The notes under the pieces were generated by a model. It was not told where the DNA came from. It ran no database searches and saw nothing but the letters and a program-made list of their open reading frames with translations. Position numbers and translations under genes: made by a program. From Streptomyces uncialis (GTDB lineage Bacteria; Actinomycetota; Actinomycetes; Streptomycetales; Streptomycetaceae): DNA of 64,000 nucleotides. Shown piece by piece: positions 47,146 to 53,241 of this stretch (position 1 is its first letter; every line of letters begins with the position of its first letter). The stretch lies in the NCBI RefSeq assembly GCF_036250755.1, contig NZ_CP109583.1:1798001-1862000 (forward strand), given 5' to 3'.

Positions 47146-47628
47146 CTAGAACAGGGCGCTGCCCCGTTCGAAGTCGAGCAGCCGCTGCTTGCGGGGCAGT
47201 CCGCCGCCGTATCCGGTGAGGTTGCCGTTCGCTCCGATCACCCGGTGGCACGGCACGATCACACTGATCGGGTTCTTGCCGTTGGCGAGCCCCACCGCAC
47301 GGGACGCGGCGGGATTGCCGAGCGCCTCGGCCAGCTCGCCGTACGTCCGGGTCTCACCGAACGGGATGCGCAGGAGCTGCGCCCAGACGGACCGCTGGAA
47401 GGGGGTGCCGTCGAGGGAGAACGGCAGGTCGAAGTCGGTGAGCTCCCCCGCGAAGTACGCGTCGAGCTGGCGTGCCGTCTCGGTGAAGGGGCCGGGGTCG
47501 CGGTCCCCGAACGACTCCTCGGGCGGCCGGTGGCGCTGGTCGGTCATATAGACGCCGCAGAGGGTGCCGTCGGTGGCGACGAGGGTGAGCGGGCCGTACG
47601 GGCTGTCGATGAGGGTGTGCTGCTTCAT
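47146..47628 (-). CDS. ogt: Methylated-DNA-[protein]-cysteine S-methyltransferase
   Basis: 160 residues; ATG 47628. The active-site motif is IVPCHRVIGANGNLTGYGGG with acceptor C127. GTPFQRSVWAQLLRIPFGETRTYGELA forms the DNA-binding helix-turn-helix and the N-terminal ribonuclease-like domain precedes it. The protein removes O6-methylguanine damage in a suicide reaction. It is the second gene after the Ada-AlkA-type gene, 48 bases apart, as expected of an alkylation-damage operon. Confidence 0.95.
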   Translation of the reverse strand: MKQHTLIDSPYGPLTLVATDGTLCGVYMTDQRHRPPEESFGDRDPGPFTETARQLDAYFAGELTDFDLPFSLDGTPFQRSVWAQLLRIPFGETRTYGELAEALGNPAASRAVGLANGKNPISVIVPCHRVIGANGNLTGYGGGLPRKQRLLDFERGSALF

Positions 47629-47676: not shown

Positions 47677-49176
47677 CTACCCCGGGAGTATGTTGATCGG
47701 GTGGTCGTCGGTCGCCCAGAGGTACTGGACGGCGTACGCGCGCCAGGGGCGCCAGGCCGCGGCGCGGGCGGTGAGGGCGGCGGGGGTGGACGGCAGTCCG
47801 AGGCCCTGGGCGGCGCGGCGCACCCCGAGGTCGGTGGGCAGGAAGGCGTCCGGGTCGCCCAGCGCCCGCATGGCGACGACCTCCACGGTCCATGGCCCGA
47901 AGCCGGGCAGGGCGCGGAGCCGGGCCCGTGCCTCGTTCCAGTCGGACTCGGCGCCGAGCCGCAGGGAGCCGTCCGCGAGCCGCGCCACGAGGGTGGTGAG
48001 GGTGGTGCGGCGGCTACGGGGCATCGCCAGGCTCCCGGGGTCCAGTGAGGCGAGGGCCTGCGGGCTGGGGAACAGCCGGGTGAGGCCGCCTTCGGGGTCC
48101 TCGACGGATTCGCCGTGGGCGGCGGCCAGCCGGGCCGCGTGGGTGCGGGCGGCGGCGGTCGACACCTGCTGTCCGAGCACGGCCCGTACGGCGAACTCGG
48201 CCTCGTCGACGGTCCGCGGCACCCGGCGGCCGGGGGCCTTGTCCACCAGCGGGGCGAGCAGCGGATCACCGCGCAGCTGTTCGTCGACCGCGACGGGGTC
48301 GGCGTCCAGGTCCAGCATGCGGCGGCAGCGGCTGATCGCGACGGTGAGATCGCGCAGATCGGTGAGGGTCAGCCGGCAGCCGATGTGGTCGGGCTCGGGG
48401 GTGAGGGCGACGATGCCGTGCCCGTAGGGCAGCCGCAGGGTGCGGCGGTACGCGCCGTCGTGCCACTCCTCGACGCCGGGCACCGCCGTGGCGACCAGAT
48501 GGCCGAAGAGGTTGTCGGGGGTGAGCGGGGCGCGGAACGGCAGCCGCAGACAGAGGGTGCCGGGGGCGGCCGGTGCGGTCCGTCCGGGGTGCGGGCCCCG
48601 GGACGCCGCCTTGGTCCGCAGTTCGCTCGGGGACAGCGCGAACACCTCGCGGACGGTGTCGTTGAAGGTGCGGATCGACGCGAAGCCCGCGGCGAAGGCG
48701 ATCTCCGCCATCGGCAGCGCGGTCGTCTCGATCAGGAGCCGCGCGGTCTGGGCCCGCTGGGCGCGGGCGAGGGCGAGCGGTCCGGCGCCGAGCTCGGCGA
48801 GGAGCTGCCGTTCGACCTGGCGGGTGCTGTACCCGAGGTGGTCGGCGAGTCCGGGTACCCCGGCGCGGTCCACGAGTCCGTCCGCGATGAGCCGCATGGC
48901 CCGTGCCACGAGGTCGGCGCGCTGGTTCCATTCGGGGGAACCGGGGCTGGTGTCGGGGCGGCAGCGTTTGCAGGCCCGGAACCCGGCCTGCTGGCAGGCC
49001 GCGGCGCTGGGGTAGAAGACCATGTTCCGCGGCTTGGGCGGCACCACCGGGCAGCTCGGACGGCAGTAGATCCGGGTGGTGAGCACCGCGGTGTAGAACC
49101 ATCCGTCGAATCGGCCGTCCTTGGACTGGACGGCTCTCACGCACCGCTCGGTGTCGGAGTGCATCGCGCTTCGCAT
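47677..49176 (-). CDS. Ada-AlkA fusion: metal-binding/AraC regulator plus 3-methyladenine DNA glycosylase
   Basis: 499 residues from ATG 49176 (GGAG is only two bases away; ATG 49164 is an alternative). Residues ~15-85 are the Ada zinc domain: FDGWFYTAVLTTRIYCRPSC, then FYPSAAACQQAGFRACKRC (four Cys, one being the phosphotriester acceptor). Residues ~95-190 are an AraC-type HTH (LADHLGYSTRQVERQLLAELG, FAAGFASIRTFNDTVREVF). Residues ~210-499 are AlkA: an N-terminal domain and HhH-GPD glycosylase with ALPGFGPWTVEVVAMRALGDPDAF (catalytic Asp). It senses methylated DNA backbone and also excises alkylated bases. Confidence 0.92.
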   Translation of the reverse strand: MRSAMHSDTERCVRAVQSKDGRFDGWFYTAVLTTRIYCRPSCPVVPPKPRNMVFYPSAAACQQAGFRACKRCRPDTSPGSPEWNQRADLVARAMRLIADGLVDRAGVPGLADHLGYSTRQVERQLLAELGAGPLALARAQRAQTARLLIETTALPMAEIAFAAGFASIRTFNDTVREVFALSPSELRTKAASRGPHPGRTAPAAPGTLCLRLPFRAPLTPDNLFGHLVATAVPGVEEWHDGAYRRTLRLPYGHGIVALTPEPDHIGCRLTLTDLRDLTVAISRCRRMLDLDADPVAVDEQLRGDPLLAPLVDKAPGRRVPRTVDEAEFAVRAVLGQQVSTAAARTHAARLAAAHGESVEDPEGGLTRLFPSPQALASLDPGSLAMPRSRRTTLTTLVARLADGSLRLGAESDWNEARARLRALPGFGPWTVEVVAMRALGDPDAFLPTDLGVRRAAQGLGLPSTPAALTARAAAWRPWRAYAVQYLWATDDHPINILPG

Positions 49177-49380
49177 GACTCCAGCATCGGGGACGCGGGG
49201 CCGTCCGGCTGGCGAGAATCCGACATCGAGGTCGTGGTGCGGGGGCGGGTGCCGGGGGCGGGGCATCTGGGACCGGGCGGGGCTCTTCCGGGTACTTCCG
49301 GGCTCCCCGGGCTCATGGGTTCCCCGGGCATGCGGGTTCCCCGGGCGCACGGGTTCCGGCGGTCCGGGGCGGTGATCGTG

Positions 49381-50697
49381 TCAGACGGTGCGGTCCTCGG
49401 TCGCCGGGGCGGCGGTGCGCGGCCGGGCGTGGCGGGCGGCGAGGGCGACGGCGGAGACGAGGGCGAGCGCCGCGCCGATACCCGTGAGCAGGCGGAAGCC
49501 GCCGGACGCGACGAGCACCCCGGAGGCGAGGCTGCCGCCCGCTCCGGCGATCAGTACACCGACGTCCATGAGCCCCTGGTAGGCGGCGCGGCGGTCGGGG
49601 GGCGCGGCGTCGGCGACCATCGTCGTCCCGCTGACGAACCCGAGGTTCCAGCCGATGCCGAGCAGGACGAGGGCCAGGGCCAGGGCGGTGCCGGAAGCGG
49701 GCGGCGCGAAGTAGGCGGTGAGGGCGGCGACGGTGAGGACGGCCGCGCCGAGTCCGGCGGTCGGGGTGCGGCCGACGCGGTCGACAAGGTGTCCGGAGAG
49801 CGGCGAGGAGAGGTACATGGCGGCCATGTGCAGTCCGATGACGATTCCGGCGGTGCCGGTGCCATGGCCGTGGTCGGTCATATGGATGGGCGTCATGGTC
49901 ATGATCGCGATCATGACCACCTGGCTGAGCACCATCACGGCGGCACCGGCCGCCATCCGCCGCAGATCCTCCCTCGGCACCCCCTTGAGGCCACCGGCCG
50001 CGGGAGCGGGACCGTCGTCGCCGGGGGCCGTGTCCGGTTTCGCGGGGCCGGGCATGTCACGGGCCAGAAGCAGCGGGTCGGGGCGCAGGAACGTGCCCAC
50101 GAACAGGGAGGCAGACGCGAACGCGGCGAAGGCCAGCAGGAACGGACCGGCGAGCCGGGGGATGTCCCAGGAGTGGGCGAGGTCGCCCATGACCCCGACG
50201 AGTCCGGGTCCGGCGACCGCTCCGGCGGCGGTCGCGAACAGGACGGTGCTCACCGCGCGGCCCCGTCGTCCGGGACTGGCGAGGTCGGCCCCGGCATAGC
50301 GGGCGAGCATCACGGACGCGGTCCCGGCGCCGTACACGAGCAGCCCGAGGAACAGCAGCGGGACGCTGTCGTACATGGTGGCGGCGACCACGAGAAGGCT
50401 GCCGAAGGCCCCTCCCCCGTAGCCGAGGGTGAGGCCGGGCCGTCTGCCCCAGCGCTGACAGGCCCGGCCGATCCCCGCGGCCCCCACTGCCGCGCCTATG
50501 GTGAACAGCGCGCTCGGCACCCCGGCGAGGCCGGTGGAACCGAGCATCTCCTCGGCGAGCAGGGCGCCGACGGTGATTCCGGCCGCGAGGGCCGCGCCGC
50601 TCAGGATCTGGGTGACGACGAGAACCCGGAGGACCCGCCGCTGCGCGGGGTGTTCCTCGTGGCCCTTCGTGTCGGGTGGTGCGGTACGGGACACCAT
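49381..50697 (-). CDS. MFS transporter (exporter of the candidate RiPP operon)
   Basis: 438 residues; ATG 50697 after GAGGAG. Twelve hydrophobic segments with a central cytoplasmic loop rich in Pro/Gly/Ala (residues ~205-240). The between-helix motif is GIGRACQRWGRRPGLTLGYG after helix 2 (the G-x3-D-R-x-G-R-R type), with a second copy GHLVDRVGRTP in the second half. It resembles drug-exporter MFS proteins. It follows the GRDP-like gene by 55 bases on the same strand, so it may export, or give self-resistance to, the product of the upstream genes. Confidence 0.88.
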   Translation of the reverse strand: MVSRTAPPDTKGHEEHPAQRRVLRVLVVTQILSGAALAAGITVGALLAEEMLGSTGLAGVPSALFTIGAAVGAAGIGRACQRWGRRPGLTLGYGGGAFGSLLVVAATMYDSVPLLFLGLLVYGAGTASVMLARYAGADLASPGRRGRAVSTVLFATAAGAVAGPGLVGVMGDLAHSWDIPRLAGPFLLAFAAFASASLFVGTFLRPDPLLLARDMPGPAKPDTAPGDDGPAPAAGGLKGVPREDLRRMAAGAAVMVLSQVVMIAIMTMTPIHMTDHGHGTGTAGIVIGLHMAAMYLSSPLSGHLVDRVGRTPTAGLGAAVLTVAALTAYFAPPASGTALALALVLLGIGWNLGFVSGTTMVADAAPPDRRAAYQGLMDVGVLIAGAGGSLASGVLVASGGFRLLTGIGAALALVSAVALAARHARPRTAAPATEDRTV

Positions 50698-50752
50698 GCG
50701 CTCGCTCCTCGTGGTGCGCGGGGAGGGCGGTGTGCGCCCCGGACGGGGTCGG

Positions 50753-51265
50753 TTACGCGGCGCGTGCCGAGCGCAGCGCCGCGATGTCCTCCAGGGAGAG
50801 GTCCATCCGCTCGTGCAGGAACCGCACGATCGTCCAGTGGGGTACGGCGTCCTCCTCGAAGGGGCCGAACTCCTGGCAGTACAGCGGGATCCAGCGCAGC
50901 GCCTCCTCGATGGTCCGCTCGCGTCCGGGTTCCTGCTGGTACTCCTCGTACCCGATGCTGCGGTGCTCGATGAGGACCTTGCCCGGCAGGCGCTCCTCGC
51001 ACAGGGCCCGGTACTCGCGGGTCTGGAGGATCAGGTAGTGCCAGATCTCGTCGATGTGCTGCTCGACGGGGAGGAAGAGCCCGGCGAGCTGGTCGCGGTG
51101 GCGGGAGACGAGGTACAGGTACCGCAGGCATTCGATGACCTGGCGTTCGGCCTCGGGGCCGCTGACGCCGGTGCCGTTCCGCACATACGCGACGACTTCC
51201 GCGTACATCTGTTCACCGAGCAGATTCCTGAGATCCTCTTCCGTCGTGAGCTGCTGCGTCTTCAT
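50753..51265 (-). CDS. Small protein with a glycine-rich-domain-protein (GRDP/DUF1399)-like motif
   Basis: 170 residues, all-helical, no membrane segment. ATG 51265 overlaps the stop of the ligase gene (ATGA). The central stretch H70-IDEIWH-YLILQTREYRALC (W75-H76, C89) with a following IEH (H101) matches the HxDxxWHxxIL...Y...C...H pattern that I associate with glycine-rich domain-containing proteins (DUF1399/GRDP). Those conserved His/Trp/Cys residues suggest a metal or small-ligand site, but no activity is established. No homologue is known to me as a peptide-modifying enzyme, so its role in the operon is unknown. Confidence 0.82.
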   Translation of the reverse strand: MKTQQLTTEEDLRNLLGEQMYAEVVAYVRNGTGVSGPEAERQVIECLRYLYLVSRHRDQLAGLFLPVEQHIDEIWHYLILQTREYRALCEERLPGKVLIEHRSIGYEEYQQEPGRERTIEEALRWIPLYCQEFGPFEEDAVPHWTIVRFLHERMDLSLEDIAALRSARAA

Positions 51266-52524
51266 CGTTCTCCATACCGGGGTGTGGGAGTTTCCTTCAC
51301 GAGCCAGGCGTGTTTTCCGGAGGCGCCTACCGGGATATGGGTCCGGTGTTCGGTGACGCAGCGCAGCCCGGTGAGGTCGCCGACGAGTTTGGTGAGAGCG
51401 GAATTCTCGGCCGGTTCGAGCGGGACATCGTCGAAGGTCGTGCAGAGCAGCCGGATTTCCTGAGGACCCGCGGTCCGCAATTGGTACAGGAAGACACGGG
51501 GCGAGGCGGCGGCCACGCATTCATCGAGGTCGCCCTGGGAAACGGCGCCGGCCGGGGTGTGCAGGAGTTCCTTCTCCCGGCCGCAGAAGCGGGCGACCTT
51601 CGACGGGTCCGGTGTGCCGTCGAGCGTGCGCACACAGTCACCGGACCGGTAGCGGATGAGCGGCATATACGGATTACGCACGCTCGTGACGATCAGACTG
51701 AAGAGGGAACTTCCCGGGGTGACGGGGAGGAGTTCCAGGCTCATCCGGTCGAGATAAGGGTGATAGCGGCCGTTTCGGTCGCTGTAGTACAGATACCCGA
51801 GTTCGGTGCTGCCGAAGAGGTCGATGACCGGGCGCCCGAGGCGTTCCTCCAGGAACCGGCGGACGTTCAGCGGGGTGTACTCGTACGCCGTGATGACGCT
51901 GGCGGGCAGCGGGAAGGAGTCCCAAAGGCCCCACTCGGCCGCTTTGCGCACCAGTTGGGCGAGGTGGTAGCCGGAGCAGTCGAGGTGGTACCAGCCCTGG
52001 GGATGGGCCCGCTGCTCGCTCCGGATCTCCTCGGTCATGCGCTCGACGTCGGCGCGTTCCCACAGACCGGGGTCGAGGCCGAGGTTGAGGTAGACCGTGC
52101 GGTCGTCCAGCCTGCGGTCCTCCAGCGCCGGCACCGCGTCGGGGGTGGTGCCGCGCTTCTTGGCGTTGACGCGGGCCACGTGTTCGGTGGCGAGCACGGT
52201 CGTCAGGGACACCCGGCGGCATCCCGCGTGCCAGGTCTCCGCGATGTCGGGGTGCTCGCTCCACAGCCGGTAGTAGCTCTTCAGCAGGAAGTACGGCGGC
52301 CGGATGATCTGCATACGGGCGTGGTTCGTCCCCGTCGAGAGGACGAATTCCGCTTCCCCGGTCTCCAGTGCGGCGGCCAGCCGGGGAGTCATCCAGTTGT
52401 CCGGGAATCCGCGGGCCGTATCCGGTTTCTCCAGAATCGGGAAATGACCCTGCTCGATCGATTCCCGGTACAGGGGTATGTCCCTGATCTGGCCGACGAC
52501 ATCGTCGGTGGGCTGGCTTTCCAT
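51262..52524 (-). CDS. PaaK-like adenylate-forming enzyme of the candidate RiPP operon
   Basis: 420 residues. ATG 52524 has AAGGTGAAC upstream; GTG 52530 is an in-frame alternative. It follows the phenylacetate-CoA ligase (PaaK/CapK) pattern: phosphate loop STGTN (63-67), FGSTE (237-241), RYRSGD (291-296) and GREKE (315-319), with the usual late lysines K404 and K410. The length is that of PaaK. It should activate a carboxylate with ATP. No CoA-ligase partner, acyl carrier protein or NRPS module is nearby, and the gene sits 139 bases after a repeat-containing peptide gene, so the substrate or acceptor may be that peptide. GC is lower than in flanking genes. Confidence 0.88.
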   Translation of the reverse strand: MESQPTDDVVGQIRDIPLYRESIEQGHFPILEKPDTARGFPDNWMTPRLAAALETGEAEFVLSTGTNHARMQIIRPPYFLLKSYYRLWSEHPDIAETWHAGCRRVSLTTVLATEHVARVNAKKRGTTPDAVPALEDRRLDDRTVYLNLGLDPGLWERADVERMTEEIRSEQRAHPQGWYHLDCSGYHLAQLVRKAAEWGLWDSFPLPASVITAYEYTPLNVRRFLEERLGRPVIDLFGSTELGYLYYSDRNGRYHPYLDRMSLELLPVTPGSSLFSLIVTSVRNPYMPLIRYRSGDCVRTLDGTPDPSKVARFCGREKELLHTPAGAVSQGDLDECVAAASPRVFLYQLRTAGPQEIRLLCTTFDDVPLEPAENSALTKLVGDLTGLRCVTEHRTHIPVGASGKHAWLVKETPTPRYGER

Positions 52525-52663
52525 GTTCACCTTCGGGGCTGCGGAAGCAGGAGAACAACTCGGGACGAACAGTGACGGGGAGGGGAGGGTGGCGTGCGGG
52601 CCGGAAATGTCCGGGCGGCGGCCGGCTGTCGCCGCCCGGCAGGTTCACCGGGTCAGCAGCGGG

Positions 52664-52819
52664 TCAGGAAATACAGCCGGTCTTCGGCGCGGAGCTGACA
52701 CAGCCGCTCTTGGGCGCCGAGCTGACGCAACCGGTCTTGTCACCGGCACTCGCGGAGTTGAGAGAGTTCCACGCCTGCCAGTTGGCGTCCTGGGCCATCT
52801 TCTTGATGAGCTGCTCCAT
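52664..52819 (-). CDS. Candidate RiPP precursor peptide with three C-terminal TGCVS-type repeats
   Basis: 51 residues; ATG 52819 preceded by the strong GGAGGT ribosome binding site. Residues 1-27 are leader-like and hydrophilic (MEQLIKKMAQDANWQAWN, with two Trp). Residues 28-51 hold three repeats of a nine-residue unit: KTGCVSSAP (28-36), KSGCVSSAP (37-45) and KTGCIS (46-51). Each has Lys, Thr or Ser, Gly and Cys in the same places, and the peptide ends at Ser. The gene has its own near-consensus promoter and is the first of a four-gene unit. It is too short to be found by size-limited gene callers. I know no named family for it; its leader does not match lanthipeptide, lasso or thiopeptide leaders that I recognise. 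Confidence 0.85.
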   Translation of the reverse strand: MEQLIKKMAQDANWQAWNSLNSASAGDKTGCVSSAPKSGCVSSAPKTGCIS

Positions 52820-52872
52820 TACGACCTCCGTGGGGGTTGGAGCACGGCATTCACCGCGCTTTCGCTGACTGG

Positions 52873-52902
52873 AAGCTAGGAGTCCGTGCCTATGCGTGTC
52901 AA
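52873..52902 (-). promoter_or_regulatory. Near-consensus promoter of the precursor peptide gene
   Basis: On the minus strand TTGACA (52897-52902) and TAGCTT (52873-52878) have an 18-base spacer. The -35 is a perfect match to the HrdB/sigma-70 consensus. Transcription would start about 47 bases before the peptide ATG. Confidence 0.7.
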
Positions 52903-53125: not shown

Positions 53126-53241
53126 CCGCATGGCAGTGGGTGCGGCCCGGCCGGCCGCATGGCAGTGGGTGCGGCCCGGCCGGCCGCATGGCAGTGGGTG
53201 CGGCCCGGCCGGCCGCATGGCAGTGGGTGCGGCCCGGCGCT
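53126..53241. repeat. Four tandem copies of a 29 bp repeat
   Basis: The unit begins CCGCATGGCAGTGGGTGCGG and is repeated with starts at 53126, 53155, 53184 and 53213, identical through the first three and then truncated. The region 52903-53446 between the peptide promoter and the FAD oxidoreductase holds no supported gene; several frames across the repeat are artefacts of it. The repeat is unlike the GGGGCGCGGGGAACTGCGC family. Confidence 0.8.

Follow-up and report, generated by a model that had tools for sequence, protein, structure and literature searches.

On the minus strand of a 64,000-nucleotide stretch of the Streptomyces uncialis genome (contig NZ_CP109583.1, positions 1,798,001 to 1,862,000; hereafter called the window), a promoter and four genes lie between position 52902 and position 49381. 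In order, these genes encode a 51-residue peptide with short cysteine-bearing repeats, a PaaK-like adenylate-forming ligase, a 170-residue protein that we call p170, and a transporter of the major facilitator superfamily (MFS). A first-pass annotation, made from the DNA sequence, had proposed this set as an unrecognised operon for a ribosomally synthesised and post-translationally modified peptide (RiPP), and the coordinates and gene spacings it gave are correct. The question raised by this locus is whether the peptide is indeed a precursor and, if so, which of the neighbouring gene products might modify it. We conclude that it probably serves as the precursor in a so far unrecognised family of peptides that are made by the ribosome and modified by enzymes, because its gene is accompanied by the same two enzyme-like genes, and often by an exporter gene as well, across many Streptomyces and a few members of two further phyla.

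Distribution of the peptide, ligase and p170 genes

There are 150 genomes in our same-genus sample, including that of the window (9.26 Mb), and the window ligase was used as a query against the other 149. Orthologues are present in 20 of these (64-74% identity, expect value (E) 1.5e-174 or better), and the next match below them is a partial one with an E of 1.7e-10. A peptide gene is located directly upstream of the ligase gene in all 20 genomes, and p170 can be read in 19 of them; the remaining locus (L020) stops at a contig end. Orthologues of p170 (E below 1e-84, with the next match at 1.5e-9) are found in the same 21 of 150 genomes as the ligase, wherein one copy (G017) lies on a separate contig. 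A profile of the peptide recovers these 21 genomes plus one other (G081; 22 of 150), whose contig ends 30 nucleotides past the peptide gene. The ligase and p170 share a single uninterrupted reading frame of 569 codons, as a fusion, in one of the 20 other genomes (G093, loci L018 and L047); such fusions were checked in the 21 genomes and not systematically in the wider set of loci described below.

This second set was obtained by scanning named genomes with two ligase motifs, which yielded 117 relatives, and the best 80 loci were kept with flanks of up to 8 kb per side. They were picked on the ligase alone, and some of the strains overlap with the 150-genome sample. There are 75 representatives from Streptomyces, one from Kitasatospora, one from Kutzneria, two from Sorangium cellulosum and one from Paraburkholderia domus. 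The peptide gene is upstream of the ligase gene in 80 of 80 loci and p170 is downstream in 79, wherein the lone exception (L121) has hardly any sequence past the ligase before its contig ends. A first version of the peptide pattern matched 79 loci, with the Paraburkholderia peptide being identified by eye, and a looser version that requires WxxW and a CxS-like triplet matched all 80.

Contig ends aside, the set that never varies comprises the peptide, the ligase and p170, and their association exceeds chance by far. Thus, the conserved neighbourhood that the first-pass annotation had suggested looking for exists, both as a triad confined to the same 21 genomes and in the loci chosen on the ligase. 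Wherever the contig permits, the ligase and p170 stand beside a repeat-bearing open reading frame (ORF), and that ORF is itself conserved. The grounds for refutation set by that annotation, namely ligase and p170 homologues that never adjoin such an ORF or a peptide that is not conserved, clearly do not hold. The window ligase matches that of Streptomyces uncialis DCA2648 (L051) at 100% identity and those of Paraburkholderia, Sorangium and Kutzneria at 63-67%. Such similarity among the ligases of three phyla suggests that the triad has been transferred between phyla. The ligase and p170 are genetically tied to the precursor-like peptide, as would be expected of RiPP tailoring enzymes.

The MFS gene, whose assignment is borne out by a match to PF07690, is the usual fourth member of the set. 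Of the 77 loci with 4 kb or more of sequence on the downstream side, 55 carry a transporter of the window type no further than 3 kb away on that side. One Sorangium locus (L120) carries a distant relative (29% identity) that overlaps p170, and Paraburkholderia has an unrelated MFS gene at the same place. The occurrence of two MFS types beside the triad suggests that transport is a recurring need.

The repeat peptide and its putative enzymes

The window peptide (MEQLIKKMAQDANWQAWNSLNSASAGDKTGCVSSAPKSGCVSSAPKTGCIS) contains three K-x-G-C-[IV]-S repeats. WxxW is present in the peptides of all 80 loci, being part of the pattern by which they were selected, and NS is located further on in the conserved N-terminal part. 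There are three repeats in 68 of the peptides, four in five, two in five, six in one and seven in one. Lysine precedes cysteine by three residues in 242 of the 246 GC[IV]S repeats, and the linkers are variable. The peptides end in GCIS (74 representatives), GCVS (2), GCISR (3) or GRAS (1), and those from Sorangium carry tandem AGCISKK or AGCISRK units. Codons for the repeat serine are AGC and TCC in the window and TCG and AGC in Sorangium. The retention of this residue with different codon families argues for selection at the protein level, beyond a mere conserved DNA repeat.

With a conserved N-terminal part followed by repeats, the peptide resembles a leader with several cores. It has the make-up of a RiPP-type precursor, in which a conserved N-terminal part precedes a repeated C-terminal core. 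The ribosome binding site and the conservation of the peptide suggest that it is translated. Among the best 120 of the 200 homologues listed, the named ones are called 'hypothetical protein', with the exception of a few uncharacterised or doubtful names. One homologue of 68 amino acids (P0120) bears the Pfam label PF18566, for which one source gives the name of a linalool dehydratase/isomerase domain, and this is probably a mislabel.

A structural model of the ligase, with a predicted local distance difference test score (pLDDT) of 84.4, matches PaaK1 best (E 1.3e-16; template modelling score about 0.6) and also matches AjiA1, ClxA and NatL2. A sequence profile places ClxA (9s3l), AjiA1 and NatL2 nearest among solved structures, with E ranging from 6.8e-7 to 2.4e-4. 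Judging from the model, the ligase has the PaaK fold, which upholds its initial description as PaaK-like. The segments STGT (residues 63-66), GSTE (238-241), GD (295-296) and SGK (402-404) are invariant in an alignment of 20 rows and are retained in other phyla. We take these segments, including the C-terminal SGK lysine, to be the catalytic motifs of ANL enzymes. A role for the C-terminal lysine is documented for NatL2 and PaaK (PMC7204872, consulted in part). The scores of the ligase for the named PaaK-type families of NCBIfam are far below the respective curated cut-offs, as seen for PaaK (14.9 versus 646.3 bits), BagE/FevW (25.1 versus 800 bits) and DVU_1553 (28.6 versus 300 bits).

The p170 protein is predicted to be all-helical (model pLDDT 80.8). 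Across 396 genomes of the phylum, the profile of p170 weakly recovers bacterial GRDP-like proteins from four besides its own (E 5e-5 to 4e-4). Residues D72, W75, H76, I79, L80, T82, Y85 and C89 are common to p170 and three GRDP-like proteins in an alignment of eight rows, and some p170 orthologues are named GRDP-like ('glycine-rich domain-containing') in databases. The Pfam GRDP-like family PF07173 gave no match for the window p170, its best E being 0.19, in 2 of 20 p170 members, which falls short of the gathering threshold. Most p170 homologues among the matches listed bear the label PF27765, and a local Pfam scan reported no PF27765. These weak profile matches and shared residues suggest that p170 is a distant relative of bacterial GRDP-like proteins, and its original designation as GRDP-like stands in this distant sense.

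Other GRDP-like genes of the same genus are located downstream of ORFs whose C-terminal stretch is rich in Cys at two loci, L193 (G105) and L168 (G067), and the stretches read CHSPCQPCHSPCGIC and CTSNCAPCYSPPCDVC. At L168, a further ORF (...GPHEHTAW...) that looks cupin-like by eye and has no Pfam match lies between the Cys-rich ORF and the GRDP-like gene. These gene pairs represent a possible second peptide-plus-GRDP-like set; at a third locus (L194), a pattern search did not recover the GRDP-like gene.

Operon layout, promoter and neighbouring genes

The features of the window operon are listed in Table 1. The ligase gene starts 139 nucleotides after the peptide stop codon, p170 overlaps the ligase gene by ATGA, and the MFS gene begins 55 nucleotides after p170.

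Table 1. Features of the four-gene operon, in the order of transcription, with positions counted from the first letter of the window.
Feature	Position	Strand	Evidence or remark
-35 element TTGACA of the peptide promoter	52897..52902	-	Sequence; near-same place in the nearest relatives (L051-L053)
-10-like element TAGCTT	52873..52878	-	18-nt spacer from -35; TAACTT in L052, TAGCTT in L053
Ribosome binding site GGAGG	52825..52829	-	GGAGG precedes the peptide in 21/21 loci
Precursor-like peptide gene, 51 aa + stop	52664..52819 (52667-52819 without stop)	-	Relative upstream of ligase in 80/80 loci
Leader-like part, residues 1-27	52739..52819	-	W14, W17, N21, S22 invariant in 21-row alignment
Core-like part, residues 28-51	52667..52738	-	KTGCVS, KSGCVS, KTGCIS, running to the C terminus
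PaaK-like adenylate-forming ligase, 420 aa + stop	51262..52524 (51265-52524 without stop)	-	Fold, sequence profile, alignment
p170, 170 aa, putative distant relative of bacterial GRDP-like proteins	50753..51265 (50756-51265 without stop)	-	Motif DEIWHYLILQTREY...C
MFS transporter, putative exporter	49381..50697 (49384-50697 without stop)	-	PF07690, E 5.9e-33

Upstream of the peptide gene, 67 of the 80 loci carry a longer site that follows the pattern TTGACA-N4-CTTGG-N5-CTTTTAC; the search for it was seeded with TTGAC and TTTA, and the CTTGG part deviates in some of the 67. When up to three mismatches are permitted, there is a single match per genome, just upstream of the peptide gene, in 14 of 14 operon-bearing genomes besides that of the window. 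At the same tolerance, neither the window genome nor three operon-free genomes yielded a match, and a reversed control of the pattern gave none either. The window and its nearest relatives carry TTGACA with TAGCTT or TAACTT in place of the longer site.

A gene for a beta-carbonic anhydrase or a SulP protein is found near 53 of the 80 loci. These genes are located downstream on the same strand in 29 cases, upstream and divergent in 14, and upstream on the same strand in 10, and no such gene was found near the other 27 loci, which include that of the window's species. There are 3-11 matches to Pro_CA per genome in the 21 sampled genomes, from which we estimate that nearness by chance would be of the order of 1%. 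A Pro_CA match lies at most about 6 kb from the peptide gene in 13 of the 20 other genomes; counts of this association include related species and are not independent. The carbonic anhydrase of one Sorangium locus (L119) belongs to another type (32% identity), and the tree fits with one old association followed by rearrangements. At loci L125-L127, the longer promoter site is absent and the SulP gene ends 63-168 nucleotides upstream of the peptide gene, as if SulP and the peptide were co-transcribed.

Some other features of the surroundings are of note. A perfect 29-bp tandem repeat of 3.9 copies is located upstream of the peptide promoter in the window (53126-53238). Directly downstream of the operon, on the minus strand, are genes for an O6-methylguanine methyltransferase (47149-47628) and an Ada-AraC-AlkA fusion protein (47680-49227), which make up an alkylation-repair pair. 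At three loci (L043, L045 and L046), minus-strand genes named by eye as OmpR-type response regulator-like and sensor kinase-like are located at about -2.9 to -0.4 kb of the peptide gene, between a carbonic anhydrase gene and the operon.

A proposed pathway, its rivals and known systems

We regard it as highly probable that the locus encodes a RiPP-like precursor plus enzymes, and we lean towards the ligase as the modifying enzyme. The gene set likely constitutes a minimal RiPP-like pathway whose ligase, together with p170, would acylate or cross-link every one of the repeats. Perhaps the N-terminal part of the peptide is recognised by the ligase and p170, and a carboxylic acid is adenylated by the ligase. 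The cysteine of each repeat would then capture the acyl group, and the lysine three residues upstream would either receive this group or be cyclised with it. The regular K-x-G-C spacing suggests this order of events, although we consider such Cys-then-Lys chemistry to be a doubtful part of the proposal. The p170 protein might be a partner in capture or ring closure (compare NatL2 and NatAM), and the product would leave via the MFS transporter. Because the triad occurs in three phyla without an obvious gene for acid supply, the acid may be a common metabolite or may reside within the peptide. Removal of the leader by a host protease is possible.

A wider claim is that the set represents a RiPP class outside all those described, wherein an ANL/PaaK ligase and a GRDP-like partner fit every KxGC[IV]S unit with an acyl-derived group or ring, and wherein GRDP-like proteins partner Cys-bearing peptides more widely. 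We advance this claim tentatively, with somewhat less than even confidence. Bolder still is the idea that the activated acid is bicarbonate, supplied through the products of the recurrent neighbouring carbonic anhydrase and SulP genes.

Several observations weigh against the proposal that the ligase and p170 modify each repeat of an exported peptide. The P-loop-like segment of the ligase is unusual (STGTNHARM) and is poorly modelled (pLDDT below 50 at residues 62-76). There is no match to a peptidase or a RiPP recognition domain in Pfam or NCBIfam for any of the four proteins. The ratio of nonsynonymous to synonymous changes (pN/pS) is only moderately low, at 0.53 for the N-terminal part and 0.39 for the repeats, as calculated from 800 sampled pairs of 78 peptides, whose alignment is rough over the repeats. 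Cysteine has been lost from single repeats, which read GRIS (L012), GRAS (L077) or GYIS (L091), and the peptide, ligase and p170 genes are retained at these loci; thus some of the units seem to be dispensable. Finally, the window-type MFS gene is absent from 22 of 77 loci, and no MFS gene adjoins p170 among the ORFs inspected at one Sorangium locus (L119) and the Kutzneria locus (L097).

Some of the same evidence can be read in other ways. One possibility is that the ligase activates the C-terminal carboxylate of the peptide itself (GCIS-COOH), whereupon attack by a thiol or a lysine amine would produce a macrocycle, a C-terminal amide or an ester. The last repeat indeed forms the exact C terminus in the GCIS and GCVS peptides counted above, and no gene for acid supply was obvious by eye among the Sorangium, Kutzneria and Paraburkholderia ORFs inspected, for which no family search was made. 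However, the inner repeats, of which the peptides have up to seven in all with the last one, are conserved like the final unit, and the three GCISR peptides have an extra arginine past it, which makes this route unlikely. It is slightly less likely again that the peptide remains unmodified and serves as a small chaperone, activator or carrier subunit for a ligase that makes a free small molecule for export by the MFS transporter. Such a role would agree with the use of free aryl acids by NatL2, which is among the nearest solved relatives (PMC7204872, consulted in part), but a strict KxGC[IV]S unit that varies in copy number and linkers seems to resemble a substrate with several cores more than it does a folded subunit.

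Two further readings are less likely. The repeated cysteines might bind zinc or copper in a metal-handling peptide that the enzymes tailor or load, and the zinc enzyme beta-carbonic anhydrase or SulP is encoded near the 53 loci described above. Given the 27 loci without either gene nearby, the window's species among them, we consider this quite improbable, on a test that included no systematic search of the flanks for metal genes. The peptide could also be a regulatory leader ORF whose translation controls the ligase gene by Cys- or Lys-dependent attenuation. It is a short ORF with its stop codon 60-353 nucleotides before the ligase match, and GC-rich hairpins are predicted between the peptide and ligase genes in five of five folded loci. 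The predicted folding energy, however, is no better than that of shuffled sequences in two of these five, including the window (z -0.25 and -0.26; the others range from -2.1 to -4.9), and the WxxW part and the glycine, isoleucine or valine, and serine of the repeats are conserved at the protein level. An attenuator peptide is thus a very remote prospect.

We therefore return to the RiPP-like pathway, which is like RiPPs in general in having a precursor-like peptide, repeated core-like units, co-inherited enzyme-like genes and a usual transporter. As the first-pass annotation had stated, the set lacks an enzyme typical of a known RiPP class, since no LanM, LanB, YcaO, radical SAM, lasso cyclase or protease family is among the Pfam and NCBIfam matches of the four proteins at E up to 1. 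We know of no RiPP class that fits an ANL ligase as the sole recognisable enzyme. The decRiPPter study likewise sought precursor-enzyme sets of unknown kind in Streptomyces, and its strict filter required a peptidase and a regulator (PMC7794033, consulted in part). A set composed of the peptide, the ligase and p170 would be expected to drop out at this filter, and the terms PaaK, adenylat- and AMP-binding do not occur in its main text. No description of the gene set was found among the open PubMed Central matches listed, although one may have been missed.

If the proposal is true, peptide tailoring gains a superfamily of enzymes that accept a broad range of acids, and GRDP-like proteins obtain a first testable setting. 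The pathway would then be present in about one in seven of the sampled genomes from the window's genus (22 of 150).

The nearest solved relatives are the PaaK-like adenosine monophosphate ligases NatL2, AjiA1 and ClxA from benzoxazole pathways, with which the window ligase has a fold in common (Foldseek E about 1e-14) at about 15-20% sequence identity. From an acyl adenylate, NatL2 forms an ester, and ring closure is then the work of a second enzyme, which depends on zinc (PMC7204872, consulted in part). This ester-then-ring chemistry is the closest chemical precedent that we found. NatL2, according to the same source, uses free aromatic acids, whereas the window ligase is coupled to p170 and to a peptide with repeats.

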